DNA from: a virus
Reading direction: 5' to 3' (one strand)
Length of the DNA stretch: 64,000 bases
IMG/VR virus record: IMGVR_UViG_3300005329_000012
Location: 25,544-89,543 of that record
Part shown: piece after piece, positions 2,366 to 57,550 of the stretch
Layout of the letters: each line of letters begins with the position of its first letter
Position numbering within the stretch: the first letter of the stretch is position 1
Notes under the pieces: model-generated
Told to the model about the DNA's origin: nothing
The model's input: the letters and a program-made list of their open reading frames with translations, nothing else
The model's database searches: none
Position numbers and translations under genes: made by a program

Positions 2366-3076
2366 GTGTACATCAACTCTGTCAAGGAGGTCGGCCCCCC
2401 GTACACCCCGCAGGAGATCAAGCGCCTGCGCCGGGAGAACATGGACATGTGCCGCAAGATGGGCCAGCCGGTCGTGCTCCGGCACATGTGGAACGAGGCC
2501 GACGCCGACGCGGGCTTCGCCGAGCGGTGCCCGGCCTGCTTCGACGCCGCCTACGACCAGCCCCGCAACGACTGCCCGGTCTGCTTCGGCTTCATGTTCG
2601 TGAGCGCCGAGAAGACGATCGACCCCGACGTGTACATCGACCGCAACGGCCAGCTCGTGACGACCCCGACGCCGCCCGCCGACTACGTGCGGGCGCCCAG
2701 GTACGGCGGCTTCGCCGAGAGCGTCCTCACCTGGCTCATGGAGCCGGACGTGGCCGTGGACGTCTTCCGCATCAGCGACCAGGGCACCATGATCAGGACC
2801 TACGACGCGACCGGCGTCGCGCCGTGGTTCCCGATGCTGTCGGACAACGACCTCTGCGTCAACGTGCAGCTCGCCGAGAACGACTACTCGATCATCGGCC
2901 AGGGCGACGACCGCTTCCAGCTCAAGATGGTCCAGCCGATCACCGTCCGCGGCTTCGGCAAGCGCGGCAGGCCCCCGGGCGCGGGCGGCCAGGCGTACCG
3001 CGTCGCCCAGAGCTTCCAGATGGCGAAGGCGCCCGCGAAGAACTCCCTCTACGACGTGCCCCTGGACGTGGCGTGA
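2366..3076 (+). CDS. Cys-rich neck/connector-like virion protein
   Basis: 236 aa starting at GTG 2366, six bases after the preceding stop, and ending in a GTGA overlap with the next gene, so probably translationally coupled. Residues about 54-72 carry two CPxCF pairs (CPACF...CPVCF), a likely structural zinc knuckle. The remainder is beta-rich with no enzyme motif (DVFRISDQGTMIRTYD, QLKMVQPITVRGF). Placement between other neck candidates and the tail sheath suggests a head-tail joining protein. I do not recognise a named family. Confidence 0.6.
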   Translation: MYINSVKEVGPPYTPQEIKRLRRENMDMCRKMGQPVVLRHMWNEADADAGFAERCPACFDAAYDQPRNDCPVCFGFMFVSAEKTIDPDVYIDRNGQLVTTPTPPADYVRAPRYGGFAESVLTWLMEPDVAVDVFRISDQGTMIRTYDATGVAPWFPMLSDNDLCVNVQLAENDYSIIGQGDDRFQLKMVQPITVRGFGKRGRPPGAGGQAYRVAQSFQMAKAPAKNSLYDVPLDVA

Positions 3077-3468
3077 GGGCCGCCGCCGCGGAGAGCCAGC
3101 GCAAGGTCAAGCGGCACGCCGTCCAGGCGGCGAACGCCCGCATGCGCTCGGAGGTCCTGGAGGACGCCCTGCGGTCGCTCCTGAAGAACGACGCGGCCAC
3201 CGCCGACGGCGAGCTGGCGGGCGGCTGGAACCCGTGGGTGCTCGACGCGACCGACGGCTTCGGCGCCACCCTGCGCGTCGAGGACCCGATCGCCATGGAG
3301 GTCCTGAGGACCCCGGCGCTGCTCACGCGCGCGCGGGAGATCATGACGGAGGAGTTCGGCCGCGCGCTGTTCGAGTCCGACGAGACCGCGGGCTTCTACC
3401 AGGCGCTCCTGGAGGACATCGTCGAGCGCCCCGAGGGTGCCATCTACGTAGCGGAGACGGTGCACTAG
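3073..3468 (+). CDS. Small virion-operon protein
   Basis: 131 aa from GTG 3073, whose codon overlaps the upstream TGA (GTGA). It ends in TAG overlapping the next GTG (TAGTG), so three neighbouring genes are likely coupled. It has a basic N-terminus (SQRKVKRHAVQAAN) and an acidic helical C-terminus (LLTRAREIMTEEFGRALFESDETAGFYQALLEDIVERP). Length and position fit a tail-completion or head-tail closure protein, but no motif decides this. Confidence 0.55.
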   Translation: MRAAAAESQRKVKRHAVQAANARMRSEVLEDALRSLLKNDAATADGELAGGWNPWVLDATDGFGATLRVEDPIAMEVLRTPALLTRAREIMTEEFGRALFESDETAGFYQALLEDIVERPEGAIYVAETVH

Positions 3469-16118: not shown

Positions 16119-16681
16119 GCAGCGTCTTCTCCACCGCGCCGCAGCAGCAGTACGAGTACGCGGCGGTCCTGATCGACGACGTCGACATCGAGGTCATGCA
16201 GGCGCACGCGCGCGACCGCACGGGCGCGATCATCCAGTGCTCGTACCGCGACCAGCCCGCCGGGCTCATGGCGATCCCGGCCCCGGGCGAGCGGTGGATC
16301 GCCATCCGCAAGGGGTACACGTGGTACCTCGAAAGCAGGATGGCGACGCCGGAGGAGATGGCGGGCCTCCAGCAGGGCGACCTCTCGATCGACGCCCCCG
16401 GGGACATCTACATCCAGGGCAAGAAGCTCTCGGCGATCGGCGGCAACGTCGTCCAGGACTTCGTCGAGCACCCGCTCGTCGGCGACGGGGGCTTCGCCAC
16501 CGCCGTCCTCACCCACGCGCCCCTGGGCGCCTCCAGCATCACGGTCTTCCTGAACGGCCTCCTCCTCTGGCCGGACCTGTGGACGTACGACGACGCGACG
16601 AAGACGATCACGTTCGACGCGACCATGGGGGAGATCGGCGCTCTCCTCGTCCGCTACGAGACCGCGGACGAGGTTAGCTAA
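16115..16681 (+). CDS. Baseplate spike-like OB-fold protein
   Basis: 188 aa; GTG overlaps the hub stop (GTGA). The first half reads as an OB-fold (YEYAAVLIDDVDIEVMQAHARDRTGAIIQCSYRDQPAGLMAIPAPGERWIAI), the fold at the base of phage spikes and gpV/gp5 proteins. The second half has repeated short strands (GDLSIDAPGDIYIQGKK) then SSITVFLNGLLLWPDLWTYDDATKTITF, a beta module common in tail tips. Placement between hub and wedge supports a membrane-piercing spike or its cap. No metal-binding HxH tip is seen. Confidence 0.65.
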   Translation: MSSVFSTAPQQQYEYAAVLIDDVDIEVMQAHARDRTGAIIQCSYRDQPAGLMAIPAPGERWIAIRKGYTWYLESRMATPEEMAGLQQGDLSIDAPGDIYIQGKKLSAIGGNVVQDFVEHPLVGDGGFATAVLTHAPLGASSITVFLNGLLLWPDLWTYDDATKTITFDATMGEIGALLVRYETADEVS

Positions 16682-24709: not shown

Positions 24710-26917
24710 ATGCCCTTCCCCGTAGGAGACACCTTCGACGACCCGCGCGGGCGCTGGAACGTCCCGACCCCGTGGGACGACTCCATCACGGAGGAGGTCG
24801 CCAACCCCTCGGCGGCCGACTTCCTGGCGACGCAGGAGCACGTCGACCTGCGCTCGTTCCGCGTCGCGGCGGACTCCCTCGCGGTGCCGCAGTACCCCGA
24901 CCTGGACACGGTGCCCCAGGACCCGTACCTGGACGACGTCTTCCAGACGAACCTTGAGGTCAAGCTCGGCGACATCTTCTCCGAGGACTGGCTGACCGAC
25001 ACCCACAGCGGCCTGACGCACTCGTACAGGGGCGCGTGGGACGTGACGGTCGCCTACTCGTCGGGGGACGTGGTGGAGTACAAGGGGAAGCACTACTCCG
25101 CGACCGGCAGCACGACCGGCGAGGCGCCGACCGGCATCGGCGCGCCGTGGAGCGAGACGTTCTTCTACGGGAAGATCGCGTCGCGCGGCGGCTGGTACGG
25201 CCTCCAGGTCACGACCGACGGCTCGGCGCTGGACACCGCGCTCCGCAGCTCGATCCCCGGCGACGCGGTCGACATCTCGAACGAGGACAAGCTCTCGATC
25301 GTCTTCCCGGACTGGCACACGTTCACGGCCGCGACGAGCACGGTCCAGCTCACGTCGAGCCCCGACGGCTCGTTCGGGACGGCGGCCTTCAACTCGGCCG
25401 CGGTCGCGTTCACCGGCAACACCGCGACCCTCCCGGAGCTGAGGCTGGCCCTGTCCGGCTTCACGTCCGGCGCGGGCACGGGCTTCACCCTGTCGTCCGT
25501 CTCGGGCATCAAGATCACGCTGAAGGGCTCGCCCGGCGCGGCCCAGACGATCACCGTCATGGCCGTCAGGGCCGTGAAGGACTCCTGGGTGCCGAGCGCG
25601 CTCGACTTCGACACGCGCTGGGGCATCATCACCCCGCCGGTCACGCTCGACGGCGCCGCCTACGCGGGCAGCGTCGCCAGGGCGTTCGAGTTCATCCGCG
25701 GCAACGGCACGCCGGACGACCCGTTCCCGGTGGACGGCGCCTACACGCTGTTCTTCAGCGGCGGGGGCGGGACCTCCCCGGCCGACGCCGTGCCGCCGCT
25801 GGTCAACACGCTCGCGATCATCCTCCGCGAGACCAAGATCTCCGACTCCGACGACGGCTCCGCGATCGTGGTCAGGCTCAAGTGGAACGAGGACACGCTG
25901 GAGTTCGAGGCGCAGCGGCGCGACACGGCCGCGGGCGTCACGAGCTACACGACGCTCTACCAGGAGACGATCAGCGCGCAGGGGCCGGACCCCAACTCCC
26001 TGTACGCCTGGAACGTCAAGCTGGTCGGCAAGAGCCTCGACTCGCGCGTGCTCCAGGTCAACCGCTCGCACGACACCGTAAGCACGGTCTGGACGCTCGA
26101 CACGCAGAGCAGCGACGACTGGACCTTCCGCAACGGCCGCGTCGGCTTCATGGCCGACCTGCTCAACCGGGACGCCTACGTCTCCGAGCTGACGCAGGCG
26201 CCGGTCGGCTACGCCACCCTGACGACGCGCGTCTACGAGGCCAGGACGCCCGTGGACGGGGCGCGCCTCCAGGCGGTCTTCGCGCCGGACGGCGACCTGT
26301 TCCAGACGCTCGACGGCCCGGACGCCTTCCGCGACCAGACCAAGACCGTCTCGGGCGCGGGCGGCATCCGCACGCTCTCCGGGCTCGACACGAACCAGTT
26401 CGTCGTGGACGACTGGTACGAGACGTACCTGGAGGCGCAGATCTGGGTGCCCGCCAACGTCTCCCGGGCCAACCAGCCCACCATCTCGCTCCAGTCGGGC
26501 GGCTCCTCGTACCCGCTCGTGATGCCGAGCCTCCAGCCGTCGCAGTGGAACTCGCTCCGCTTCGAGCTGCGCCGCTTCAAGGACCTCATCACCGGCCTGC
26601 CGTACAGCTTCAACTTCGGCCCCGGCGAGGCGCCGGACACCCCGCTCGGCTTCTTCTGGGTCGACTCGGTCGTCATCGGCCGCCGCCGGGTCTCCTGGAG
26701 CGTTCGCGCGGTCGAGAACGGCCCGTGGCGGCGCTTCTACGGCCTGGTCAACGACCCGAAGGGCGCGGTCCACTTCAACCCCGACGAGAGGGGCCGGTTC
26801 CTCCAGCTGAGGGCCGAGGCGCTGACCAACGACGCCTGGGTCAGCGAGTTCACCCTGTTCCCGCACTACGCCGAGCTGGGCCTGCCGCTGTACGACCGCG
26901 GGTTCGAAACCCGCTAG
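24710..26917 (+). CDS. Receptor-binding/tail fibre-like protein with CBM5/12-like domain
   Basis: 735 aa, last large gene of the tail module. Residues about 108-147 show a chitin-binding-type module (YRGAWDVTVAYSSGDVVEYKGKHYSATG, then GAPWSE), matching the W...Y..GD.V.Y.G..Y pattern of CBM5/12-like domains that bind polysaccharides. The rest consists of concanavalin-like beta segments (DGSAIVVRLKWNEDTLEFEAQRRD, LQVNRSHDTVSTVWTLD), typical of glycan-binding tail proteins. Together these suggest a receptor-binding or fibre role on the cell-wall polysaccharide. The specific receptor cannot be inferred. Confidence 0.68.
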   Translation: MPFPVGDTFDDPRGRWNVPTPWDDSITEEVANPSAADFLATQEHVDLRSFRVAADSLAVPQYPDLDTVPQDPYLDDVFQTNLEVKLGDIFSEDWLTDTHSGLTHSYRGAWDVTVAYSSGDVVEYKGKHYSATGSTTGEAPTGIGAPWSETFFYGKIASRGGWYGLQVTTDGSALDTALRSSIPGDAVDISNEDKLSIVFPDWHTFTAATSTVQLTSSPDGSFGTAAFNSAAVAFTGNTATLPELRLALSGFTSGAGTGFTLSSVSGIKITLKGSPGAAQTITVMAVRAVKDSWVPSALDFDTRWGIITPPVTLDGAAYAGSVARAFEFIRGNGTPDDPFPVDGAYTLFFSGGGGTSPADAVPPLVNTLAIILRETKISDSDDGSAIVVRLKWNEDTLEFEAQRRDTAAGVTSYTTLYQETISAQGPDPNSLYAWNVKLVGKSLDSRVLQVNRSHDTVSTVWTLDTQSSDDWTFRNGRVGFMADLLNRDAYVSELTQAPVGYATLTTRVYEARTPVDGARLQAVFAPDGDLFQTLDGPDAFRDQTKTVSGAGGIRTLSGLDTNQFVVDDWYETYLEAQIWVPANVSRANQPTISLQSGGSSYPLVMPSLQPSQWNSLRFELRRFKDLITGLPYSFNFGPGEAPDTPLGFFWVDSVVIGRRRVSWSVRAVENGPWRRFYGLVNDPKGAVHFNPDERGRFLQLRAEALTNDAWVSEFTLFPHYAELGLPLYDRGFETR

Positions 26918-49885: not shown

Positions 49886-49959
49886 CGCGGGGTAGAGCAG
49901 TTTGGTAGCTCGCCAGGCTCATAACCTGGAGGTCGTGGGTTCAAATCCCACTCCCGCTA
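49886..49959 (+). tRNA. tRNA-Met (CAT), initiator-like
   Basis: Cloverleaf with anticodon loop CTCATAA, T-arm GTGGG-TTCAAAT-CCCAC. Position 1:72 is an unpaired C/T, as in initiator tRNAs (C1 x A72 in bacteria), although the three G-C pairs in the anticodon stem are incomplete. A73, no encoded CCA. Confidence 0.85.
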
Positions 49960-50154
49960 CTTGAGGTACAAGTTCGAGCCCGCCACGGCGGGCAGCCCCG
50001 CAAGGGGCGATTGAGCCCGGGCCGAGCCCTCCCGGGACCTAAAAAGGGGCTTCTGGCTTCGCTGTTACCAGGAACCGAACAGCGTGGTGGAGGCTGGCGT
50101 ACCGCGTCAGGCCCTCGCACGGGGAGGCACGGCGTCAACTGGTGCCTCAGAATA
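49960..50154 (+). other. 195-nt spacer with hairpins and a T-arm-like fragment
   Basis: Between tRNA-Met and tRNA-Pro. It contains AAGTTCGAGCCC (T-loop-like), hairpins GCCCCG-CAAG-GGGC-like near 49997 and GAGCCCGGG...CCCGGG near 50014. No complete cloverleaf or ORF is found. Possibly tRNA remnants. Confidence 0.3.
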
Positions 50155-50229
50155 CAGGGTGTAGCTCAGTCTGGTGAGAGTACTCCGTTGGGGACGGAGA
50201 GGTCGTGGGTTCAAGTCCCACCACCCTGA
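50155..50229 (+). tRNA. tRNA-Pro (GGG)
   Basis: Acceptor CAGGGTG/CACCCTG with C1-G72 and A73 typical of proline. Anticodon stem CTCCG/CGGAG, loop TTGGGGA, T-arm GTGGG-TTCAAGT-CCCAC. No CCA encoded. Confidence 0.92.
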
Positions 50230-50279
50230 TGGCGACCGCGGCCGGTAACGGCGGGGACGGCTCGGAGAGACGAGCGCAT

Positions 50280-50353
50280 CAGCGTGTAGCTCAGTCTGGC
50301 AGAGTCGCCGCTTCGGGAGCGGATGGTCGCAGGTTCGAATCCTGCCACGCTGA
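50280..50353 (+). tRNA. tRNA-Pro (CGG)
   Basis: Acceptor CAGCGTG/CACGCTG, C1-G72, A73. Anticodon loop TTCGGGA within CCGC/GCGG; T-arm GCAGG-TTCGAAT-CCTGC. Second proline tRNA. Confidence 0.92.
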
Positions 50354-50412
50354 CTGGCCCCTTCGGGGGCCGTGTCCGACCGGGCGCGGGAACACCTTCC
50401 CCGGTCGGCCCT

Positions 50413-50786
50413 GGGCCAGCCATGGCTTTCGACAGTCGAGCATGGACGGCGAGATCGCAGCGGGTCGCGGCCTACCGCGCCTAGCCCCGGATCGGGCAAA
50501 CCCAAATGCGAACGACAACGATCGCATCGAGGTCGCGGACACGTTCCCGGCAGAGTGGCTCGCCGCTCCCGCCGAGTCGGCCCTCGTCGCTGCCTGACGA
50601 GCACCAACAGGTAGACCGCACCCGCCGGTAGCGGGTGACGCCCCGGAGAGACGGGTCGCCGCAGGGGTGAACGGCGCTAAACCGATGGACCCCCGAGCCC
50701 GGGGTACGCTGGCCGGGCACACAAGCTGCTAGAAGGTCTTGACGGAACCACCCGGCTGGACGCGGGTTCGACTCCCGCCTGGTCCA
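50413..50786 (+). ncRNA. ssrA: tmRNA
   Basis: Transfer-messenger RNA, 374 nt. The tRNA-like ends pair: GGGCCAG (50413-50419) with CTGGTCC (50779-50785), including the G3-U70 wobble that marks alanine charging, then A73. The 5' part has GGCTTTCGACA, the D-loop-like signature. The 3' part has GCGGG-TTCGACT-CCCGC closely matching bacterial tmRNA 3' ends. The tag frame (50508-50597) starts ANDNDR and ends ALVAA-stop, 29 residues, long but with the usual C-terminal degradation signal. It rescues stalled ribosomes and may serve phage late translation. Confidence 0.92.
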
Positions 50787-50927
50787 CTCCACTGCACCAA
50801 GCGTTGCCCCGACGGCGACGGGTCCCGGCTCTGCGGAGCACACTGCAACCGGGCCGCGGACGTGCTCACCGCGCGGTCGCTGATGAACGACGGAGGCCCG
50901 ACCAGTTCGGGGCTGAGGTCTCCACCT

Positions 50928-51001
50928 ATGCCGCTAGCTCAATCAGGCAGAGCAGGTGTCTCCAAAGCACAAGGTTCCGGGTTCGATTCCTGGGCGGCAT
51001 G
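50928..51001 (+). tRNA. tRNA-Trp (CCA)
   Basis: Acceptor ATGCCGC/GCGGCAT, G73. Anticodon loop CTCCAAA; T-arm CCGGG-TTCGATT-CCTGG. Confidence 0.9.
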
Positions 51002-51015
51002 CCTCGCACCACCCT

Positions 51016-51088
51016 GTCCGGTTCGTCTAGTGGACCAGGATGCCGCCCTCTCACGGCGGAGACACGGGATCGTAGCCCGTACTGGACA
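51016..51088 (+). tRNA. tRNA-Glu (CTC)
   Basis: Acceptor GTCCGGT/ACTGGAC, A73; D-arm TCGTCTAGTGG typical of Glu. Anticodon loop CTCTCAC between CCGCC and GGCGG. T-loop ATCGTAG lacks the usual T54-T55. Confidence 0.88.
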
Positions 51089-51125
51089 TAGGGCACGCTC
51101 GGCCGCGAGGCCGCCGTGCCCGCAT

Positions 51126-51198
51126 TGGCGGGTAGCTCAGTCGGTAGAGCGGCTCCCTGTTAAGGAGAAGGTCGTGGGATCGAAGCCCACCCTGCCAG
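51126..51198 (+). tRNA. tRNA-Asn (GTT)
   Basis: Acceptor TGGCGGG/CCTGCCA, G73. Anticodon loop CTGTTAA in CTCC/GGAG. T-loop ATCGAAG has A54 instead of T. Confidence 0.9.
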
Positions 51199-51246
51199 CT
51201 CACAGCGCCCTAGCAGGGGGCGCGGACACAAGTACCCTGCGCGCGT

Positions 51247-51319
51247 AGCCCGTTCGACTAGCGGACAGGTCGCCGCTCTTTCAAGGCGGTAGGCGCGGGT
51301 TCGAATCCCGCACGGGCCA
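51247..51319 (+). tRNA. tRNA-Glu (TTC)
   Basis: Anticodon loop CTTTCAA between CCGCT and GGCGG; T-arm GCGGG-TTCGAAT-CCCGC; A73. Acceptor pairs 2-7 but A1/C72 mismatch. Confidence 0.87.
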
Positions 51320-51352
51320 TTGCCAGGCAGCACAGCAAGACCGCAGCGCCAC

Positions 51353-51423
51353 TGGGAGGTCGTCTAATGGTAGGACGCCGGGTTCTGGCCCCGGAAACTG
51401 AGGTTCGACCCCTTGCCACCCAG
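51353..51423 (+). tRNA. tRNA-Gln (CTG)
   Basis: D-arm TCGTCTAATGGTAGGAC as in glutamine tRNAs; anticodon loop TTCTGGC in CCGGG/CCCGG; G73. Acceptor TGGGAGG/CCACCCA has one A-A mismatch at 5:68. Confidence 0.87.
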
Positions 51424-51435
51424 CTCGCAACACCC

Positions 51436-51508
51436 GCCTCGCTAGCTCAGTCGGTAGAGCAGGGGACTTTTAATCCCAAGGTCCTAGGTTCGAACCCTAG
51501 GCGGGGCA
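51436..51508 (+). tRNA. tRNA-Lys (TTT)
   Basis: Acceptor GCCTCGC/GCGGGGC, A73. Anticodon loop CTTTTAA; T-arm CTAGG-TTCGAAC-CCTAG. Confidence 0.92.
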
Positions 51509-51539
51509 CTGCAACAACTTCTCGACGTGGCGTCCCGCG

Positions 51540-51632
51540 AGGGGCGCTGGCGAAGCCGTCCGACGCATCCCTGGATCGCGACCAGGCTCTCAGTGGCGGG
51601 GGAACGCGGGTTCGATTCCCGCAACGCTCCTA
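51540..51632 (+). tRNA. tRNA-like gene, identity unclear (possible CGC anticodon)
   Basis: A good T-arm (GCGGG-TTCGATT-CCCGC) and a near-complete acceptor (GGGGCGC against ACGCTCC, with G3-U70 but C7/A66 mismatch). A hairpin CCTGG-ATCGCGA-CCAGG would give anticodon CGC. The D-arm lacks GG and the variable region is long, like type II tRNAs. Could be a decaying tRNA-Ala or a divergent type II tRNA. Confidence 0.4.
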
Positions 51633-51660
51633 ACCGGGCGGGCCTGGCACGTCGGGGCGC

Positions 51661-51733
51661 GGACCGCTAGCTCAGTCGGCAGAGCAGGGGCCTCTTAAGC
51701 CCAAGGTCCAGGGTTCGATCCCCTGGCGGTCCA
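51661..51733 (+). tRNA. tRNA-Lys (CTT)
   Basis: Acceptor GGACCGC/GCGGTCC, A73. Anticodon loop CTCTTAA; T-arm CAGGG-TTCGATC-CCCTG. Confidence 0.93.
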
Positions 51734-51821
51734 CTCAGGGAGGCGCGACGGAGTTCGGCCTGACGGCCGCCGTTGGGAAGCCCCGGCCCCGGTGCCGGGT
51801 GGCCTACCCCTCCCTGTACAC

Positions 51822-51903
51822 GCTCCTGTGGCGGAACAGGTAGACGCGCTGGTTTCAGGAACCAGTGTCTTCGGACGTGGGGGTTCGGATCCCTCCGGGA
51901 GCA
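51822..51903 (+). tRNA. tRNA-Leu (CAG)
   Basis: Type II with long variable arm (TGTCTTCGGACG). Acceptor GCTCCTG/CGGGAGC, A73; anticodon loop TTCAGGA in CTGGT/ACCAG. T-loop TTCGGAT. Confidence 0.92.
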
Positions 51904-51974
51904 CTTGACAACCCCGGCTTCGGCCGGAGACGCGCGGGGCGGCGTGGGCCTTCGGGCCGGGACAGCCCCAACAT

Positions 51975-52058
51975 GCGCTCGTGGTGGAATCGGTAGACAC
52001 GTCGGCTTGAGGAGCCGGTGGCCGCGAGGTCGTGGGGGTTCAACTCCCTCCGGGCGCA
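51975..52058 (+). tRNA. tRNA-Leu (GAG)
   Basis: Type II. Acceptor GCGCTCG/CGGGCGC, A73; anticodon loop TTGAGGA in CGGC/GCCG; T-arm GGGGG-TTCAACT-CCCTC. Confidence 0.92.
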
Positions 52059-52157
52059 CTAGGCTGGCCGTCAGACGGTGAGAACGCGGCCCGCTCAGGG
52101 AAGGCACCTACCCGGGCCGACTGCTCACCTCTTTGCCCGGACGTAGCCTTCCCGCAC

Positions 52158-52230
52158 GGCGACGTAACTCAGTCGGTAGAGTGTCTGTCTGAAAAGCAGA
52201 AGGTCGGCGGTTCAAGTCCGCCCGTCGCCA
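52158..52230 (+). tRNA. tRNA-Phe (GAA)
   Basis: Acceptor GGCGACG/CGTCGCC, A73; anticodon loop CTGAAAA in TCTGT/GCAGA; T-arm GGCGG-TTCAAGT-CCGCC. Confidence 0.93.
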
Positions 52231-52372
52231 TCGAGAGAGGGAAACATCCCGGAAGCGGTAGTGTGTTGAGGCCGGGGCCGAACCGCCTGACGCTGGCGGG
52301 GGAATGGGAGCACCCGGGCGCACCCGGAGTCCCGGTTCGAGTCCGGGCCGCGAGACCCTCCCTCGGAACCGC

Positions 52373-52454
52373 GCCCGCCTGGCGGAACAGGTAGACGCCC
52401 CGGCTTCAAACACCGGCGCCACCAGGCGTTCGGGTTCGAGTCCCGAGGCGGGCA
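52373..52454 (+). tRNA. tRNA-Leu (CAA)
   Basis: Type II. Acceptor GCCCGCC/GGCGGGC, A73; anticodon loop TTCAAAC; T-arm TCGGG-TTCGAGT-CCCGA. The 118 nt upstream (52250-52365) hold a lone T-arm (CCCGG-TTCGAGT-CCGGG) without a matching acceptor, probably a tRNA remnant. Confidence 0.9.
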
Positions 52455-52469
52455 TAGCAAGACCAGCAT

Positions 52470-52542
52470 GGAGGACGTAGCTCAGTGGTAGAGTCGCGGG
52501 TTGTGGTCCCGTCGGTCGTGGGTTCGATCCCCACCGTCCTCC
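52470..52542 (+). tRNA. tRNA-His (GTG)
   Basis: Acceptor GAGGACG/CGTCCTC with an extra G at -1 (52470) opposite C73, the histidine identity pair. Anticodon loop TTGTGGT in GCGGG/CCCGT; T-arm GTGGG-TTCGATC-CCCAC. Confidence 0.93.
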
Positions 52543-52640
52543 CTCCCTGTGGCCCCGCATTGCCAAAGCAGAGGAACCACCGGCCCGTTACGCGGGGAAG
52601 CACCGGGCGCCGTCGGCCTGTGAACAGAACGGACGGACAC

Positions 52641-52714
52641 GTGGGAGTAGCTCAGTTCGGTAGAGTGTCGGCTTGCCAAGTCGAAGGTCGCGGGTTCGAT
52701 CCCCGTCTCCCACA
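52641..52714 (+). tRNA. tRNA-Gly (GCC)
   Basis: Acceptor GTGGGAG/CTCCCAC, A73; anticodon loop TTGCCAA in TCGGC/GTCGA; T-arm GCGGG-TTCGATC-CCCGT. Confidence 0.91.
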
Positions 52715-52716
52715 CT

Positions 52717-52746
52717 GCCGCCCAGGCCCGGAAGGGAGCAAGCGGC
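52717..52746 (+). ncRNA. ffs: SRP RNA (4.5S) domain IV-like hairpin
   Basis: The 30-nt hairpin carries the full universal SRP RNA signature: outer stem GCCGC/GCGGC, symmetric loop CAGG (52723-52726) against AGCA (52737-52740), inner CCC/GGG, and a GGAA tetraloop (52730-52733). This is the binding site of Ffh and FtsY in every bacterial SRP RNA. The outer boundaries are uncertain; the next 100 nt contain further stems (GCAGCCC at 52783 with GGGCTGC at 52836). It lies between tRNA-Gly and tRNA-Thr and has no coding potential. A tRNA-array-borne minimal SRP RNA is the simplest reading. Confidence 0.72.
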
Positions 52747-52847
52747 CACAGCAGTCCGCCGGGGGCACGCCGAGGCGCATGCGCCGAAGCAGCCCTAAGA
52801 CAGAGCCGCGTTCCGGTCGCGGCCTAATCCCTAAGCGGGCTGCACAC

Positions 52848-52921
52848 GCCACCGTAGCTCAGTCGGCAAGAGCGCCCGCCTTGTAAGCGGGAGGTCCGGG
52901 GCTCGACCCCCCGCGGTGGCT
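52848..52921 (+). tRNA. tRNA-Thr (TGT)
   Basis: Acceptor GCCACCG/CGGTGGC, T73; anticodon loop CTTGTAA in CCCGC/GCGGG. T-loop CTCGACC has C54. Confidence 0.9.
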
Positions 52922-52930
52922 CTCGTACAC

Positions 52931-53003
52931 GCCCCGCTAGCTCAGCGGAAAGAGCGACGGGTTCCTAACCCGCAGGTCGCAGGTTCGATCCCTGCGCGGG
53001 GCA
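52931..53003 (+). tRNA. tRNA-Arg (CCT)
   Basis: Acceptor GCCCCGC/GCGGGGC, A73; anticodon loop TTCCTAA in ACGGG/CCCGC; T-arm GCAGG-TTCGATC-CCTGC. Confidence 0.92.
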
Positions 53004-53138
53004 TCCACCGAGGCTGGGCGCGCGAGGTCCGTCGCCGGACGCGTCCGCTGCCGTAGTACCCTCTGACGACACGGGAGAGCGGCAGGCGCCTTCGGGCGCG
53101 TGAAAGGCTTAGCGGCCCGGTAGCCAACTCGGTGATTT
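53004..53138 (+). other. Structured spacer, possible small RNA
   Basis: 135 nt with CTGCCG/CGGCAG enclosing a further stem, GTCC-GTCGCC-GGAC, and GCGCC-TTCG-GGCGC. No ORF or cloverleaf. Could be an RNA of unknown type or processing signals. Confidence 0.3.
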
Positions 53139-53212
53139 GCGCTGGTAGCTCAGTCGGATAGAGCCACGGGCTTCTAACCCGTCGGTCGGGGGTTCGAGTC
53201 CCTCTCGGCGCA
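53139..53212 (+). tRNA. tRNA-Arg (TCT)
   Basis: Acceptor GCGCTGG/TCGGCGC, A73; anticodon loop CTTCTAA in ACGGG/CCCGT; T-arm GGGGG-TTCGAGT-CCCTC. Confidence 0.92.
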
Positions 53213-53311
53213 TCGTGGGTCCTCCAGGAGGGGTGACAGCGAGGACATCTGGCCGGGCATTCGTGGAGCCGCCCCTGCCCGGGAACAACTGGCGGCCTAG
53301 ACCCTCCACCC

Positions 53312-53385
53312 GCACGCATAGCTCAGTCTGGCAGAGCGACGCGCTTCCAACGCGTAGGTCAGGGGTTCGAGGCCCCTTGCGTGCT
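53312..53385 (+). tRNA. tRNA-Gly (TCC)
   Basis: Acceptor GCACGCA/TGCGTGC, T73; anticodon loop CTTCCAA in ACGCG/CGCGT; T-arm AGGGG-TTCGAGG-CCCCT. Confidence 0.92.
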
Positions 53386-53392
53386 TCATCGC

Positions 53393-53466
53393 TGCTCCGT
53401 AGCTCAGTCAGGCAGAGCGTCCGGCTCATAACCGGCAGGTCGAGGGTTCGAGTCCCTCCGGAGCGA
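53393..53466 (+). tRNA. tRNA-Met (CAT), second copy
   Basis: Acceptor TGCTCCG/CGGAGCG, A73; anticodon loop CTCATAA in TCCGG/CCGGC; T-arm GAGGG-TTCGAGT-CCCTC. Could be elongator Met, or Ile2 if C34 is modified to lysidine. Confidence 0.9.
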
Positions 53467-53669
53467 CTGGGGACAGCGGGGCGGACCGCCCGCCGGGAAC
53501 ACACTTCGCCGTGCACGGCGCAAGGCACGTCCTGGCAGCAGTGGCCACCGGACGGAATCCGATCGACCGCGCCCTACCTAACTGCTGGCCACCGGCCGAT
53601 GGTCATTCCGCCGTTCGACTCGGCGAGCCGGGGAGGGTGGCTCCCTCCAGCCAGGCCAGCAGGTCTTTC
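53467..53669 (+). other. 203-nt structured spacer
   Basis: No ORF or tRNA. CAGCAGT (53539 region) can pair with ACTGCTG about 45 nt later, and TGGCCACCGG occurs twice. Likely part of a folded RNA or a remnant; not recognised. Confidence 0.3.
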
Positions 53670-53743
53670 GCCCGTGTAGCTCAGTCAGGCAGAGCACTTC
53701 CCTCGTAAGGAAGGGGTCCGGGGTTCAACTCCCCGCGCGGGCT
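53670..53743 (+). tRNA. tRNA-Thr (CGT)
   Basis: Acceptor GCCCGTG/CGCGGGC, T73; anticodon loop CTCGTAA in CTTCC/GGAAG; T-arm CGGGG-TTCAACT-CCCCG. Confidence 0.92.
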
Positions 53744-53798
53744 CTTGGGTGCCGGTTCGTCGATCGTGGGCCGGTCCCCAGCAGCTTCATGAAGAACC

Positions 53799-53814
53799 GC
53801 GCGATGCATCGCGC
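53799..53814. repeat. 16-nt perfect palindrome
   Basis: GCGCGATGCATCGCGC is exactly self-complementary. It lies in the spacer between two tRNA-Thr genes, together with an isolated GTGCGAATCCC fragment. Confidence 0.7.
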
Positions 53815-53909
53815 ATAGGAGGGCCGGGGTGCGAATCCCTGTAGAGAAAACGGTTGCCTCCGAACCGGGAGCGGTTGACGGGCCAGATCACCCGCGGCGC
53901 TCCCGACCC

Positions 53910-53984
53910 GCCGACGTAGCTCAGTCAGGCCAGAGCACTTCCTCGGTAAGGAAGGGGTCCAGGGTTCAAGTCCCTGCGTCGGCT
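53910..53984 (+). tRNA. tRNA-Thr (GGT)
   Basis: Acceptor GCCGACG/CGTCGGC, T73; anticodon loop TCGGTAA in CTTCC/GGAAG; T-arm AGGG-TTCAAGT-CCCT. Shares its anticodon stem with tRNA-Thr(CGT), suggesting duplication. Confidence 0.92.
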
Positions 53985-53990
53985 TCGCAC

Positions 53991-54063
53991 GGCCCGTTAG
54001 CTCAGTGGACAGAGTGTCCGGCTTCGAACCGGATGGTCGGGGGTTCGACTCCCTCACGGGCCG
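53991..54063 (+). tRNA. tRNA-Arg (TCG)
   Basis: Acceptor GGCCCGT/ACGGGCC, G73; anticodon loop CTTCGAA in TCCGG/CCGGA; T-arm GGGGG-TTCGACT-CCCTC. Confidence 0.92.
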
Positions 54064-54170
54064 CTTCCGTGGAACGTCGGGTAGGTCGCCACTGGCGGCC
54101 AGGCCCGGCGCGATCGGTTCACGCGGGAGGCAGCGCGTGAGAGGGGTGGAAGTCCCCACTGCCACAACAC

Positions 54171-54245
54171 GGACCGTTAGCTCAGCATGGTCAGAGTAGC
54201 GCCCTGTCGAGGCGATGGTCACGGGTTCGAATCCCGTACGGTCCG
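54171..54245 (+). tRNA. tRNA-Asp (GTC)
   Basis: Acceptor GGACCGT/ACGGTCC, G73 as expected for Asp; anticodon loop CTGTCGA in GCGCC/GGCGA; T-arm ACGGG-TTCGAAT-CCCGT. Confidence 0.92.
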
Positions 54246-54284
54246 CTCCGTTTCAGAACGCACGAAAACGGGTAGAAACAACCC

Positions 54285-54309
54285 ACGGGGCCGTCTTCGG
54301 GCGCCCCGT
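54285..54309 (+). terminator. Hairpin between tRNA-Asp and the acidic protein gene
   Basis: Stem ACGGGGC/GCCCCGT (7 bp), loop CGTCTTCGGGC. The same stem sequence occurs in the island leader at 49796-49817. May be a processing site. Confidence 0.4.
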
Positions 54310-54342
54310 CCAAACCAAGCACCAGGGGGCAAGACAGCAACG

Positions 54343-55044
54343 ATGGCAGACCAGAAGTACTACGACTCGACGGACACCGAGCGGACCAACCCGCTCAGCC
54401 GTCAGCAGGCGGCGCAGGTCCAGATGGGCGGACACGCGGTGGTCGACGAAGACGGCCAGCCCGCGACACTCTACGCGTACGACGTGCTCCACGGCCGCGA
54501 GGCCGTGACCGGCGAGGTATCGGCGGACCAGCTCGACCGCGAGGCCCTCAAGGCCAACGGCGGCGAGGCCCGCGACGCCTGGCAGGAGCAGGCCGACGAG
54601 AACGCCGCCGACGGCGGCGACGAGCCCGAGCGGCTCACGATCCCGCAGCTCAAGGAGCAGATCGCGGACCTCAGCGACGAGGACCTCGACAGCTACGCGA
54701 ACGACGACCGCAAGGGCGCCCAGGAGGCCGCGAAGGCCGAGCAGGCGCGCCGCGCGGAGGCCGCCGAGGCCGACGAGAAGAACGAGGACGAGAACAGCAC
54801 GGCCAGCGGCGCCGAGGGCGTCGAGGCCGCCGTCCAGGGCGTCCTGGAGTCGCAGCAGGCCGCCAGCAACCGGCCGCCCGACTCCGACGAGGCGCAGGCG
54901 CTTCTCGCGCAGGCCACCGTCGGCGGCGACAGCGGCGACGCGACCGTGGAGGGCGTCGTCGAGGACGACGGCTCCCCGGGCGACAAGGAGTTCGACCCGG
55001 ACGCCGCGGCGGACGAGAAGGACTCCGAGGACGAGGACAAGTAG
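54343..55044 (+). CDS. Acidic protein with HeH/SAP-like motif inside tRNA array
   Basis: 233 aa from ATG 54343. The central segment LTIPQLKEQIADLSDEDLDSYANDDRKGAQEAAKAEQARR fits the short helix-extended-loop-helix (HeH/LEM/SAP-like) motif found in phage head-associated proteins. The C-terminal 90 residues are Asp/Glu-rich and disordered, and overall charge is strongly negative. No clear ribosome site (GACAGCAACG). It sits between tRNAs and is followed by a strong hairpin; related acidic proteins lie near the portal at 59991-63049. Possibly a capsid-associated or DNA-mimic protein. Confidence 0.7.
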   Translation: MADQKYYDSTDTERTNPLSRQQAAQVQMGGHAVVDEDGQPATLYAYDVLHGREAVTGEVSADQLDREALKANGGEARDAWQEQADENAADGGDEPERLTIPQLKEQIADLSDEDLDSYANDDRKGAQEAAKAEQARRAEAAEADEKNEDENSTASGAEGVEAAVQGVLESQQAASNRPPDSDEAQALLAQATVGGDSGDATVEGVVEDDGSPGDKEFDPDAAADEKDSEDEDK

Positions 55045-55049
55045 CACAC

Positions 55050-55071
55050 GAGGCCCCCGCGAGGGGGCCTC
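55050..55071 (+). terminator. Terminator after acidic protein gene
   Basis: Perfect 9-bp stem GAGGCCCCC/GGGGGCCTC with GCGA (GNRA) tetraloop, 6 nt after the stop. tRNA-Val follows immediately, so read-through or a new promoter is needed for the second half of the island. Confidence 0.68.
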
Positions 55072-55075
55072 ACCA

Positions 55076-55148
55076 GGGCGGCTAGCTCAGTAGGGAGAGC
55101 GCCGGTTTCACACGCCGTAGGTCGCAGGTTCGAGCCCTGCGCCGCCCA
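55076..55148 (+). tRNA. tRNA-Val (CAC)
   Basis: Acceptor GGGCGGC/GCCGCCC, A73; anticodon loop TTCACAC; T-arm GCAGG-TTCGAGC-CCTGC. One pair of the anticodon stem (27:43) is mismatched. Confidence 0.88.
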
Positions 55149-55390
55149 TCGACCGTAGGACCGTTGGCCTAAAAGCAGCCACCGGCTAAGGAGTGGCGAG
55201 GCAGGGATCGGGGACCGGAACCAGAAGGGTCGATCCGATCTTCAAAGATTCACCGGGCCTGGTAAGGGAGAAGCCCGGGCATCTGCCGCGAAGGCCCGAC
55301 GCAAGGAGAAGCGTCGGGGAGAAGCCCGGAACGGAAGCGAGCCGCATACCCTGCGCGGCGAGCCGACGAGGACTGACCGTCCTACCGGGA
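55149..55390 (+). ncRNA. Structured RNA with 23S helix 43-like hairpin
   Basis: About 240 nt without coding potential, closed by GTAGGAC (55155-55161) pairing with GTCCTAC (55379-55385). The first hairpin, GGCCTAAAAGCAGCC and its flanks (55163-55182), matches the bacterial 23S rRNA L11-binding hairpin (E. coli about 1057-1081, GGCUUAGAAGCAGCC) at most positions, and the similarity continues as TAAGGAGTGGCG versus UAAAGAGUGCG. Two later hairpins show purine loops: CCGGGC/GCCCGG with loop ending AAGGGAGAA (55253-55278) and CCCGACGC/GCGTCGGG with loop AAGGAGAA (55295-55318). It directly precedes the RNase P RNA. Not a family I know. Confidence 0.6.
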
Positions 55391-55445
55391 TGCCGACTTC
55401 GCACGTGAGCCTTTGGCGTAGCAGCACACCTTCGGTCGAACCCAT

Positions 55446-55680
55446 TCGAAGGGGAAGACACGCGCGGCGCGGTGCTTCGAGACGCGTCGAGGAAAGTCAG
55501 GCCACCTGCCGCCCGGGGACGGGACGGCAAACGCGCGGCGACCGAGCGGGAGGGCTCCGGCCCGTCTCACCGCCAGGACCGGCGGGGTGCAACCCCAAGC
55601 GCGGCGCCCAGACCGGGCGTCCAGGTAGGGGGCACAGATGGATGCGTGTCCTAGACAGAAGCCTGCTTACGAACCTTCGA
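55446..55680 (+). ncRNA. rnpB: RNase P RNA, compact phage version
   Basis: Catalytic RNA that trims tRNA 5' leaders. Signatures: CR-I as CGAGGAAAGTC (55488-55498) and CR-V as GACAGAAGCCTGCTTAC (55654-55670), with AGATGGATG before it as in bacterial RNAs (AGAUGAAUG). Helices: P1 TCGAAGG/CCTTCGA (55446-55452 with 55674-55680), P2 GACACGC/GCGTGTC (55457-55463 with 55644-55650), and P4 AAG(T)CAGGC with GCCTGCTT, which keeps the universal bulged U while its pairs covary from E. coli. At about 235 nt it is far shorter than the usual 350-400 nt, so the specificity domain is reduced. It sits within the tRNA array it would process. Confidence 0.9.
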
Positions 55681-55729
55681 GACACGGTCCCTAACCGCTT
55701 AGGCTAACAACCGCGGGGCGGGGCCTCCA

Positions 55730-55803
55730 GACCGCGTAGCTCAGTCGGGACGAGCGCCACGTTGACATCGTGGAGGTCGGTGGTTCGAGCCCACCCGTGG
55801 TCA
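55730..55803 (+). tRNA. tRNA-Val (GAC)
   Basis: Acceptor GACCGCG/CGTGGTC, A73; anticodon loop TTGACAT in CCACG/CGTGG; T-arm GGTGG-TTCGAGC-CCACC. Confidence 0.92.
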
Positions 55804-55809
55804 CTGCAA

Positions 55810-55882
55810 GTCCCAGTAGCTCAGAGGACAGAGTGCAGCCCTGCGAAGGCTGAGGTCGGCGGTTCGATCCCGCCCTGGGACG
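55810..55882 (+). tRNA. tRNA-Arg (GCG)
   Basis: Acceptor GTCCCAG/CTGGGAC, G73; anticodon loop CTGCGAA in CAGCC/GGCTG; T-arm GGCGG-TTCGATC-CCGCC. GCG is an unusual bacterial Arg anticodon; bacteria normally read CGC with ACG edited to ICG. Confidence 0.9.
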
Positions 55883-55883
55883 C

Positions 55884-55889
55884 TACACT
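55884..55889 (+). promoter_or_regulatory. -10 box of a leaderless promoter
   Basis: TACACT starting two nt after tRNA-Arg(GCG) ends, 7 nt before ATG 55897. No ribosome site in between. Confidence 0.6.
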
Positions 55890-55896
55890 TTGGGGC

Positions 55897-56100
55897 ATGG
55901 CGAAGAAGATCAACGCGAAGAAGGAGAAGGCCCTCCGCAACGAGGCGTACGCGAAGCAGTTCCGCAAGCGGACGCCCGGCCGGAAGGACCGGGACAAGAA
56001 GCGGCTCGGCGGCCCCTGGGGCAACTGGTGCCGCATCAAGGGGCACCCGCAGAACTGCGGTTGCGTGTACGGCGTAGGGACTGGTAGCTCAGCTGGTTAG
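55897..56100 (+). CDS. Small basic protein overlapping a tRNA gene
   Basis: 67 aa, leaderless ATG 55897. Very Lys/Arg-rich N-terminus (MAKKINAKKEKALRNEAYAKQFRKR), then GGPWGNWCRIKGHPQNCGC with three cysteines, possibly a metal site. The stop (TAG 56098-56100) lies inside the D-loop of tRNA-Ile, so mRNA and tRNA share 23 nt. Basic composition suggests nucleic-acid binding, perhaps to the RNAs encoded around it. I do not recognise a family. Confidence 0.65.
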   Translation: MAKKINAKKEKALRNEAYAKQFRKRTPGRKDRDKKRLGGPWGNWCRIKGHPQNCGCVYGVGTGSSAG

Positions 56101-56151
56101 AGTGGCGCTCTGATAAGGCGCAGGTCGGTGGTTCGAGTCCACCCCAGTCCA
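56078..56151 (+). tRNA. tRNA-Ile (GAT)
   Basis: Acceptor GGACTGG/CCAGTCC, A73; anticodon loop CTGATAA in GCGCT/GGCGC; T-arm GGTGG-TTCGAGT-CCACC. The first 23 nt are also the 3' end of the upstream small CDS. Confidence 0.93.
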
Positions 56152-56153
56152 TC

Positions 56154-56247
56154 GGAAGGTAGCTCAGACCCCATGCGAGCGCAATGGCGTGTCGCGGAGA
56201 GCTGGCCCTAACGGGTCGAGACGGCGCGGTGGGAGGCGCCCCTTCCG
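56154..56247 (+). pseudogene. tRNA-like remnant with enlarged D-loop
   Basis: Starts GGAAGG-TAGCTCAG like a tRNA and ends CCTTCC-G complementary to its 5' end, but has no TTCRA T-loop, a long D-loop insertion and no clear anticodon arm. Looks like a decayed tRNA. Confidence 0.4.
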
Positions 56248-56252
56248 TACAG

Positions 56253-56323
56253 GGCGACGTGGCCGAGCGGTTAGGCGGTTGGCTGCAACCCTTCACACAC
56301 AGGTTCGAGTCCTGTCGTCGCCT
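56253..56323 (+). tRNA. tRNA-Cys (GCA)
   Basis: Acceptor GGCGACG/CGTCGCC, T73 as expected for Cys; anticodon loop CTGCAAC; T-arm ACAGG-TTCGAGT-CCTGT. The anticodon stem (GTTGG/CCTTC) has two mismatches. Confidence 0.85.
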
Positions 56324-56434
56324 CTAGGTGGCCCCTACGCGGCCACCAGTGCCCCACTCTGGCCCACCGAGGGCCGGGGCGGGGAGTTCCATTGCTTCGC
56401 GAGGTCGGCGCCAGAGGCGCCCACTCTCGTGCTC

Positions 56435-56507
56435 GGGCCGGTAGCTCAGTCGGGAGAGCGACGCACTCGCACTGCGTAGGTCAAGGGTTCGACTCCCTTC
56501 CGGTCCA
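56435..56507 (+). tRNA. tRNA-Ala (CGC)
   Basis: Acceptor GGGCCGG/CCGGTCC with G3-U70, A73; anticodon loop CTCGCAC in ACGCA/TGCGT; T-arm AAGGG-TTCGACT-CCCTT. Confidence 0.93.
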
Positions 56508-56599
56508 CTGCTCCGTCGGGGTACCCGGGTGGTTCCCGGGACTGTCTGAGGAGCGCCCTCTCGGCAGAGGCCGCGTAACCGCGCGGTGTCGGGAGGCCC

Positions 56600-56672
56600 G
56601 GGGCGTTAGCTCAGCTGGGAGAGCATTTGGCTGGCAGCCAAAAGGTCGAGGGTTCAAGTCCCTCACGCTCCA
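56600..56672 (+). tRNA. tRNA-Ala (GGC)
   Basis: Acceptor GGGGCGT/ACGCTCC with G3-U70, A73; anticodon loop CTGGCAG in TTTGG/CCAAA; T-arm GAGGG-TTCAAGT-CCCTC. Confidence 0.93.
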
Positions 56673-56673
56673 T

Positions 56674-56704
56674 GGGTGATCCGGGTTCGAGTCCCGGGCG
56701 CACC
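56674..56704 (+). pseudogene. tRNA minihelix remnant
   Basis: GGGTG / CGCACC acceptor-like ends directly flank a perfect T-arm (CCGGG-TTCGAGT-CCCGG). D-arm and anticodon arm are absent, as if deleted from a tRNA. Confidence 0.5.
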
Positions 56705-56818
56705 TGCCCCGATAGCAGGCCCCGCGAAGGGCCGCAAGCCATGGCTGGCGGGCAAACGTCGGCCCGGTTCGCGCCGGTCCCGGCGGGGAGCGTTGGTGCA
56801 ACGGCAGCACACCCTCAC

Positions 56819-56906
56819 GGAAGGGCTAGCCGACAGTCGGCGACGGCACCCGGTTGCTAACCGGACGAGGCGCAAGCCCTTGAGGGATCATCCCCCTCCC
56901 CTTCCG
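56819..56906 (+). tRNA. tRNA-Ser (GCT)
   Basis: Type II. Acceptor GGAAGGG/CCCTTCC, G73; anticodon loop TTGCTAA in CCGG/CCGG; variable arm GAGGCGCAAGCCC. T-loop ATCATCC is atypical. A tRNA-like 5' half (GGAGCGTTGGTGCAACGG, 56788 on) runs into its start. Confidence 0.85.
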
Positions 56907-56932
56907 CTCGTTTCGACCGCCCCTACCCCGGG

Positions 56933-56938
56933 TACAAT
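56933..56938 (+). promoter_or_regulatory. -10 box for small membrane protein
   Basis: TACAAT, 19 nt before ATG 56958, with GGAGGAGG as ribosome site in the short leader. A possible -35 TTTCGA lies 16 nt upstream. Confidence 0.55.
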
Positions 56939-56957
56939 CACGGGGGAGGAGGCAAAC

Positions 56958-57128
56958 ATGGGAGTGATCGGAGTCATCCTGCGCGTGGTCGCGTTCGTGC
57001 TGTTCGTCGTGGCGGGGGTCAACGAGACCCTGCTCAACCAGCCGCCCGCCGACCTCGTCGCATTCGGCCTGGCCGCCTGGGTCCTCGCCGTCCTGCTGGA
57101 CGGCGTCGACGTCGGCCGCCTCGGCTGA
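56958..57128 (+). CDS. Small two-helix membrane protein
   Basis: 56 aa with ATG and a near-perfect GGAGGAGG site. Two hydrophobic segments (VIGVILRVVAFVLFVVAGV and LVAFGLAAWVLAVLLDGV) separated by NETLLNQPPAD. Has its own promoter and a following hairpin, so it is an independent unit within the tRNA island. Could alter the host membrane or help lysis; unknown. Confidence 0.75.
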   Translation: MGVIGVILRVVAFVLFVVAGVNETLLNQPPADLVAFGLAAWVLAVLLDGVDVGRLG

Positions 57129-57137
57129 GACACGGAC

Positions 57138-57156
57138 TGGCCGCCCCTAGCGGCCA
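57138..57156 (+). terminator. Hairpin after small membrane protein gene
   Basis: 7-bp stem TGGCCGC/GCGGCCA with loop CCCTA, 10 nt after the stop codon and just before tRNA-Ser(CGA). Confidence 0.5.
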
Positions 57157-57159
57157 CAC

Positions 57160-57248
57160 GGAAGGGCAAGCCGACGGTTGGCTGACGGCACCGGATTCGA
57201 AACCCGGCGAGGCGAGAGCCCTTGTGAGTTCGATCCTCACTCCTTCCG
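57160..57248 (+). tRNA. tRNA-Ser (CGA)
   Basis: Type II. Acceptor GGAAGGG/TCCTTCC, G73; anticodon loop TTCGAAA in CCGG/CCGG; T-arm GTGAG-TTCGATC-CTCAC. Confidence 0.92.
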
Positions 57249-57253
57249 CTCAC

Positions 57254-57342
57254 GGAGAGGCAACCCGACGGCTGGCGACGGGACCCGCTTGGAAAGCGGA
57301 CGAGCCTTTGCGGCCTTGCGGGATCGTTCCCCGCCTTCTCCG
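57254..57342 (+). tRNA. tRNA-Ser (GGA)
   Basis: Type II. Acceptor GGAGAGG/CTTCTCC, G73; anticodon loop TTGGAAA in CCGC/GCGG. T-loop ATCGTTC lacks T54. Confidence 0.9.
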
Positions 57343-57356
57343 CTCGCGTAAGGGGT

Positions 57357-57470
57357 GTGAGGATCATCCCGACGCAGAAGGGTCCCGACCGGGACCTGGC
57401 AATCCTCCTCTGGACCACGGTCGCCGTCCTGGCGACGGTGATCTTCGTCGCGTACCACGCATTCCACTGA
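57357..57470 (+). CDS. 37-aa single-helix membrane protein
   Basis: Small frame between two tRNAs: GTG 57357, TGA 57470 immediately before tRNA-Tyr. The sequence has a basic start (VRIIPTQKGPDRDL) and one clear transmembrane helix (AILLWTTVAVLATVIFVAYHAF). TAAGGGGTG, found before several other phage genes, lies at 57349-57357; it is close to this GTG, so the exact start is uncertain. Probably expressed with the island. Confidence 0.5.
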   Translation: MRIIPTQKGPDRDLAILLWTTVAVLATVIFVAYHAFH

Positions 57471-57550
57471 GCCGACGCTGGGGCTGGGACCCCGACCTGG
57501 CTGTAAACCAGGCGTCTCGTACTAGGCAGGTTCGATTCCTGACGGCGGCA
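57471..57550 (+). tRNA. tRNA-Tyr (GTA)
   Basis: Type II-like with extended variable region. Anticodon loop CTGTAAA in CCTGG/CCAGG, T-loop TTCGATT, A73. Acceptor GCCGACG/CGGCGGC has an A5/G68 mismatch. Confidence 0.87.

Follow-up and report, generated by a model that had tools for sequence, protein, structure and literature searches.

Naturally small RNase P RNAs are known from archaea: as described in PMC4919922 (after Lai et al. 2010), the Pyrobaculum type P/T RNA consists of the catalytic domain only, with nearly no specificity domain (S-domain). In the laboratory, the catalytic domain (C-domain) of the E. coli RNase P RNA (RPR) is catalytically active without the S-domain, both with and without the C5 protein; P18 is dispensable, and a P6-like contact helps the activity of C-domain constructs (PMC5839562). 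Among phages, the theta ribozymes of gut phages are phage-encoded and tied to phage tRNA processing, at 3' trailers rather than 5' leaders (PMC10879173). The translation gene sets of huge phages comprise large tRNA sets, tmRNA, tRNA synthetases and a CCA-adding enzyme (PMC7162821; PMC8172020). RNase P goes unmentioned in the main text of PMC7162821, and an Rfam check of the megaphages of PMC8172020 detected tRNAs and a tmRNA only. RNase P belongs to the small number of nearly universal ribozymes, and its carriage by viruses is not known as far as we found: a search of the open-access literature, with subscription papers and preprints outside its scope, returned no report of a phage or viral RNase P RNA.

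We analysed a 64,000-nt stretch of DNA, hereafter the window, which corresponds to bases 25544-89543 of a virus record totalling 89,543 bases. An earlier note had identified an RNase P RNA within it and had proposed a covariance-model search as the check. That search supports the identification. The Rfam model of class A RNase P RNA (RF00010) matches a 241-nt segment end to end, with a score of 46.4 bits and an E value of 3.3e-13 in a local scan (1.1e-14 when the whole virus record was searched), and the bacterial class A model is the best match within its clan. The score nevertheless stays below the curated Rfam cut-off (gathering score, 100 bits), and the RNA is therefore missed by routine annotation; a routine Rfam run over the region reports tRNAs only. 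The RNA of a diverged relative, L095, likewise falls short, at 49.4 bits. We infer that the scores are low because the model expects an S-domain that the window RNA does not have.

The conserved core is readily located. The three motifs named in the earlier note stand where it placed them: the CR-I string GAGGAAAGTCAGG at 55489-55501, of which the window has one copy against none expected, AGATGGATG at 55636-55644 and GACAGAAGCCTGCTTAC at 55654-55670. Helices P1-P4 can all be drawn (8, 7, 7 and 8 bp, respectively), and the canonical nested helices, with P4 not counted, lie only 4.1 kcal/mol from the minimum free energy fold (-107.8 vs -111.9 kcal/mol). Plain folding free energy gave no signal for the window RNA (z = -0.55); it was uninformative and was not used. 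P4 joins AAG(U)CAGGC to GCCUGCUU and keeps the bulged U at 55497, as had been claimed. The accompanying claim that three P4 pairs differ from those of E. coli was too high, since only two of the eight do so. These are C-G to A-U and G-C to C-G, judged against the M1 RNA sequence.

The window RNA thus keeps P1-P5, P15, P16/17, CR-I/IV/V, the P4 bulged U, the L15 GGU and the J5/15 CAA, the last including the equivalent of A248 (A248/A249 in the numbering of E. coli M1 RNA). The specificity domain had been described as reduced, which is correct but understates the change. No CR-II/CR-III signature (specificity domain P7-P14) was found in the window RNA or in that of L095, and P18 is absent between P15 and CR-V of the window RNA. 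By motif content, the specificity domain is lost: its tRNA-binding core, CR-II/CR-III, is gone, and an unrelated 79-nt plug stands in its place. P6, which is important for the activity of C-domain constructs (PMC5839562), is seen clearly in L100, L076 and L092, which are other minimal viral RNAs, but not in the window, where the best complement does not rise above shuffles (p about 0.11).

Table 1. Features of the window that bear on the RNase P RNA and its viral setting (window coordinates)
Feature	Position	Strand	Basis or remark
Tail sheath protein (phage hallmark)	4313..6352	+	phrog_2839, E 1.3e-63
tRNA array: 36 tRNA genes (all 20 amino acids) and one tmRNA	49886..57550	+	ARAGORN
tmRNA	50413..50787	+	ARAGORN; weak in Rfam (24 bits)
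Reduced class A RNase P RNA	55445..55685	+	RF00010 1-367/367; syntenic homologue in L095
P1 5' strand UUCGAAGG	55445..55452	+	pairs with 55674-55681; 8 bp
P2 5' strand GACACGC	55457..55463	+	pairs with 55644-55650; 7 bp
P3 hairpin	55465..55489	+	55465-55471 with 55483-55489; 7 bp
CR-I and P4 5' strand	55489..55502	+	AAG 55494-55496, bulged U 55497, CAGGC 55498-55502; P4 8 bp
P5 5' strand CACC	55503..55506	+	pairs with GGUG 55586-55589; 4 bp
79-nt hairpin region replacing specificity domain	55507..55585	+	no CR-II/CR-III signature
P5 3' strand and J5/15 CAA	55586..55592	+	includes A248 equivalent
P15-P16/17	55593..55632	+	P15 CCCC 55593-55596 with GGGG 55629-55632 (4 bp)
P16/17 hairpin and L15	55604-55609/55615-55620	+	6 bp; L15 GGU 55624-55626
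CR-V first part AGAUGGAUG and P2 3' strand	55636..55650	+	
CR-V ACAGAA and P4 3' strand GCCUGCUU	55655..55669	+	P4 strand 55661-55668
P1 3' strand CCUUCGAG	55674..55681	+	pairs with 55445-55452

The RNA is flanked by tRNA-Val(cac) and tRNA-Val(gac), and ARAGORN bears out the earlier placement inside a 36-tRNA array. No tRNA gene of the array appears, by eye, to encode CCA after the discriminator. The array tmRNA has a syntenic copy in L095 (404-770) that scores 56.7 bits, above the Rfam cut-off; the tag predicted from the window tmRNA is unusually long (ANDNDRIEVADTFPAEWLAAPAESALVAA). Just upstream of the RNase P RNA, the array also holds a 285-aa reading frame (54187-55044), for which nothing was found in Pfam, PHROGs or PDB sequences.

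The viral setting that the earlier note had inferred is also well supported. Besides the sheath, which is 33-35% identical to the Myrna and Rhodococcus E3 sheaths, the same contig encodes a baseplate wedge, virion structural proteins, a primase, a DnaE-type DNA polymerase, an exonuclease and a ribonucleotide reductase. The sheath and a second structural protein resemble those of the Myrna/Bixzunavirus/Rhodococcus E3 actinobacterial myophages at about 33-35% identity, and the phage kin of the window infect actinobacteria. These similarities point to a contractile-tailed phage of actinobacterial type as the putative carrier. Positions 24710-26914 encode what may be a tail fibre, which carries a carbohydrate-binding domain (CBM_5_12). 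In another metagenome record, one contig is 100% identical over 6.6 kb and a second encodes an identical sheath; the assembly is therefore sound, although such identity provides no independent evolutionary evidence. The gene for the RNase P protein, rnpA (PF00825), was found in none of the 29 virus records tested, including this one, while ten bacterial controls were positive; the second survey set was outside this test. Since our own record covers only a fragment (89.5 kb) of the genome, an RnpA encoded elsewhere in it is not excluded. The CCA-adding/poly(A) polymerase head domain (PF01743) was likewise not found in this fragmentary record. It does occur alongside the RNase P RNA in three relatives, G067 (15844-16230), G027 (2822-3211) and G025 (222153-222524), within reading frames of more than 1000 aa in the first two.

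Comparison with diverged relatives shows which parts of the RNA are held and which drift. L095 (virus record G067, 150 kb) carries 37 tRNAs whose order is nearly that of the window, with the tmRNA and the RNase P RNA both in matching places, and its DnaE is 45-55% identical to that of the window by segment. Between the two RNAs, identity is 71% (5') and 81% (3') in the catalytic domain and 56% in the plug, where shuffled plugs give 46% on average. The plug that replaces the S-domain thus drifts while the helices P1, P2 and P15 compensate: P1 of L095 is rebuilt by compensating changes, a C-G pair of P2 becomes A-U, and P15 is CCCC/GGGG in the window and CCUC/GAGG in L095. The same CCUC/GAGG P15, within the same J5/15-P15 stretch, is found in L007, a further, distant relative with sheath and DnaE homologues. 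Together, the sequence data show an intact catalytic core, a fold under selection, a phage gene, and a place in the array that is kept in a diverged relative.

Viral RNase P RNAs are not confined to this lineage. The conserved 3' core was searched for as a pattern in 2.9 million viral contigs; two such scans produced 35 and 41 loci, with RF00010 matches at E 1e-3 or better in 28 and 32 records, respectively (60 in all), so the window RNA is no one-off. Many of these RNAs lie in tRNA arrays, of up to 37 tRNAs. The survey records are mostly fragments, and some may include host flanks. Terminase was above cut-off in 13 of them (8 + 5) and below it in one more; the sheath family occurs in six, our own included, and head-tail adaptor and virion proteins in two more. 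Two loci recovered with the pattern GAGGAAAGTCAGGCCAC (L105 and L106) were rejected as coding-like sequence in which the 3' core is missing. When the locus was compared with phage records by nucleotide BLAST, no match was returned. A query of nine joined viral RNAs matched six records, namely phage scaffolds from the human gut, one Salmonella genome record and two contigs of Acinetobacter, and a second joined query matched none. The cultured distant relatives Myrna, E3, Finch, Pupper, Skog, Stormageddon, Phrappuccino, Alice and LE2-3 have no RF00010 match, so this body plan can do without the RNA. The jumbo phages XacN1 and G, both rich in tRNAs, also gave no RF00010 match, under stricter filters only.

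Pairing was counted in 41 of the 47 distinct full RNAs. The covariation set excludes six full-size RNAs (L009, L016, L017, L066, L073 and L102) that have no local tRNAs or weaker viral support, so that a host flank or prophage is possible; L029, L070, L085, L091 and L096, which lack CR-I or are cut by contig ends, were left out of the counts. Over P1, P2 and P4, 98.3% of cells are paired (96.5%, 99.2% and 99.1%, respectively) and 287 are changed on both sides; covariation is 0.855, compared with 0.192 after shuffling and no more than 0.134 when partners are slid. The offsets of P1 and P2 were chosen by best pairing within a narrow range, which leaves P4 as the only fully unbiased helix; taken alone, P4 has four pairs changed on both sides.

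Of the 47 RNAs, 16 do not exceed 250 nt and, by the motif test, have no CR-III; a full S-domain is present in many other viruses whose RNA has the same tRNA-array setting. Automatic S-domain lengths misplace P5 in a few full-size RNAs (L004, L008 and L079), and lengths were judged jointly with the CR-III test. The smallest viral RNA, L076 (8982-9139), has 158 nt, with 8 nt between the P5 strands; L100 (9778-9941, 164 nt) and L104 (1545-1710, 166 nt) have 6 nt there. In these, the P5-loop bases can pair with the P16/17 loop to form P6, as GGCAG/CTGCC in L076 and GTTGAG/CTCAAC in L100/L104, with shuffle fractions of 0.022 and 0.006/0.004, respectively. All three are predicted candidates for very small bacterial-type RNase P RNAs, with P6 likely. 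A compact plug, GCTTAAGGTGGGAGAG...GCACCACC, is common, with variation, to L064, L069, L078, L082, L088, L097 and L098, which apparently form a separate viral subclass. In L096 (924-1760, minus strand, record G068), the specificity domain is split by an insert with an HNH endonuclease-like frame (...HKNGISNDNRPENLEFLCPNCH...), and L099 has an apparent remnant at the same place; the arrangement resembles homing of the insert into a viral RNase P RNA.

We consider it likely that the segment, as a functional viral gene, encodes an RNase P RNA derived from class A and cut down essentially to the catalytic domain, and that this RNA works with host RnpA on the phage's own tRNAs; no activity, expression, cleavage or binding data bear on this. 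The earlier note suggested that the phage provides a tRNA-processing ribozyme of its own; this, like catalysis, expression and use of host RnpA, is still inferred. The RNA would be co-transcribed with the tRNA array and freed from the transcript by the tRNA-processing cuts themselves. In L095, tRNA-Ile ends at 4965 and the RNase P RNA starts at 4966, and the RNA abuts tRNA genes in L092 and L076 too, so tRNA processing itself could release it. It would then bind host RnpA, a step inferred because no viral rnpA was found in the 29 records tested, and cleave the 5' leaders of phage tRNAs and of pre-tmRNA, such that the full tRNA set might mature even if host rnpB were limiting, shut off or degraded. 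Without a specificity domain, the acceptor stem and leader (with RnpA) should be recognised rather than the T-loop. The activity of the E. coli C-domain (PMC5839562) makes such minimal viral forms plausible enzymes. The CCA-adding-type enzyme of the relatives could complete the 3' ends of tRNAs without an encoded CCA. A broader proposal is that many unrelated phages hold RNase P RNA in their tRNA arrays as a self-supplied tRNA-making module, and that several lineages have separately stripped it to the catalytic domain (down to 158 nt, with the S-domain turned into a 6-8 nt loop forming P6), working with host RnpA and self-freeing from the array transcript; this we regard as evenly poised between right and wrong.

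Two other readings cannot be excluded from sequence. A C-domain that binds protein is kept while the S-domain that binds substrate is lost, and no viral rnpA was found in the records tested, both as expected if the RNA were mainly a sponge for host RnpA or tRNA precursors that blocks host tRNA maturation, with the phage relying on a small residual activity. This seems to us very unlikely, given that the catalytic residues (P4 bulged U, CR-I, CR-IV, CR-V) are kept as strictly as the protein-binding parts, that the L15 GGU is retained, and that a phage with a huge tRNA array depends on RNase P activity. The RNA might instead act on substrates other than ordinary pre-tRNA 5' ends, e.g. inter-tRNA spacers, phage mRNAs or its own precursor. 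Loss of the T-loop-binding module would fit, as would the adjoining tRNAs in L095, L092 and L076 and the tRNA genes that do not encode CCA; however, 36 ordinary tRNA genes surround the RNA, and a full S-domain is retained by many other viruses in the same setting, so we judge this unlikely as well.

That the RNA is a relic or passenger from a host, with no present function, might be suggested by a score below the Rfam cut-off and by its absence from cultured relatives, but we find it barely credible. Compensatory changes have accumulated across the distance at which DnaE is 45-55% identical, as well as in the 41 viral RNAs, which means that the fold is under selection, and no close relative was seen with a broken P1, P2 or P4. 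Host flanks do occur in virus collections (L049 looks like one and L016 may be), which raises the question of an assembly artefact or of host DNA mislabelled as viral. The 100% identical stretch on a contig of another metagenome record, the sheath, baseplate and DnaE on the same contig, and the same, syntenic array in L095 render this extremely improbable. Both of these readings conflict with the compensatory changes and the synteny.

If viral RNase P RNAs recur as the survey indicates, they would show that the takeover of tRNA maturation by some phages reaches back to its first step, and natural S-domain-free RNAs of bacterial type would provide direct material on a long-standing question, the purpose of the specificity domain and the minimum size of a natural RNase P RNA. 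Because many matches fall below annotation cut-offs, such RNAs have probably been overlooked in public data. The RNA family is known; the viral, specificity-domain-free and recurrent form appears to be new. With bacterial class A RNA (RF00010), the window RNA has the full catalytic domain in common (P1-P5, P15, P16/17, P4 bulged U, CR-I/IV/V, L15 GGU), but it is viral, scores below the cut-off, lacks CR-II/CR-III and P18, and has 241 nt instead of about 350-400. The Pyrobaculum type P/T RNA is likewise catalytic-domain-only (PMC4919922); however, that RNA is archaeal and cellular, with archaeal protein partners, whereas the window RNA is bacterial-type and in a phage, and we infer that the phage minimal form was probably reached separately. 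Theta ribozymes are HDV-like self-cleaving RNAs, not RNase P (PMC10879173). The engineered E. coli RPR (PMC5839562), also a C-domain without an S-domain, is a laboratory construct, whereas the phage RNAs have evolved, and some of these retain a P6-like pseudoknot.
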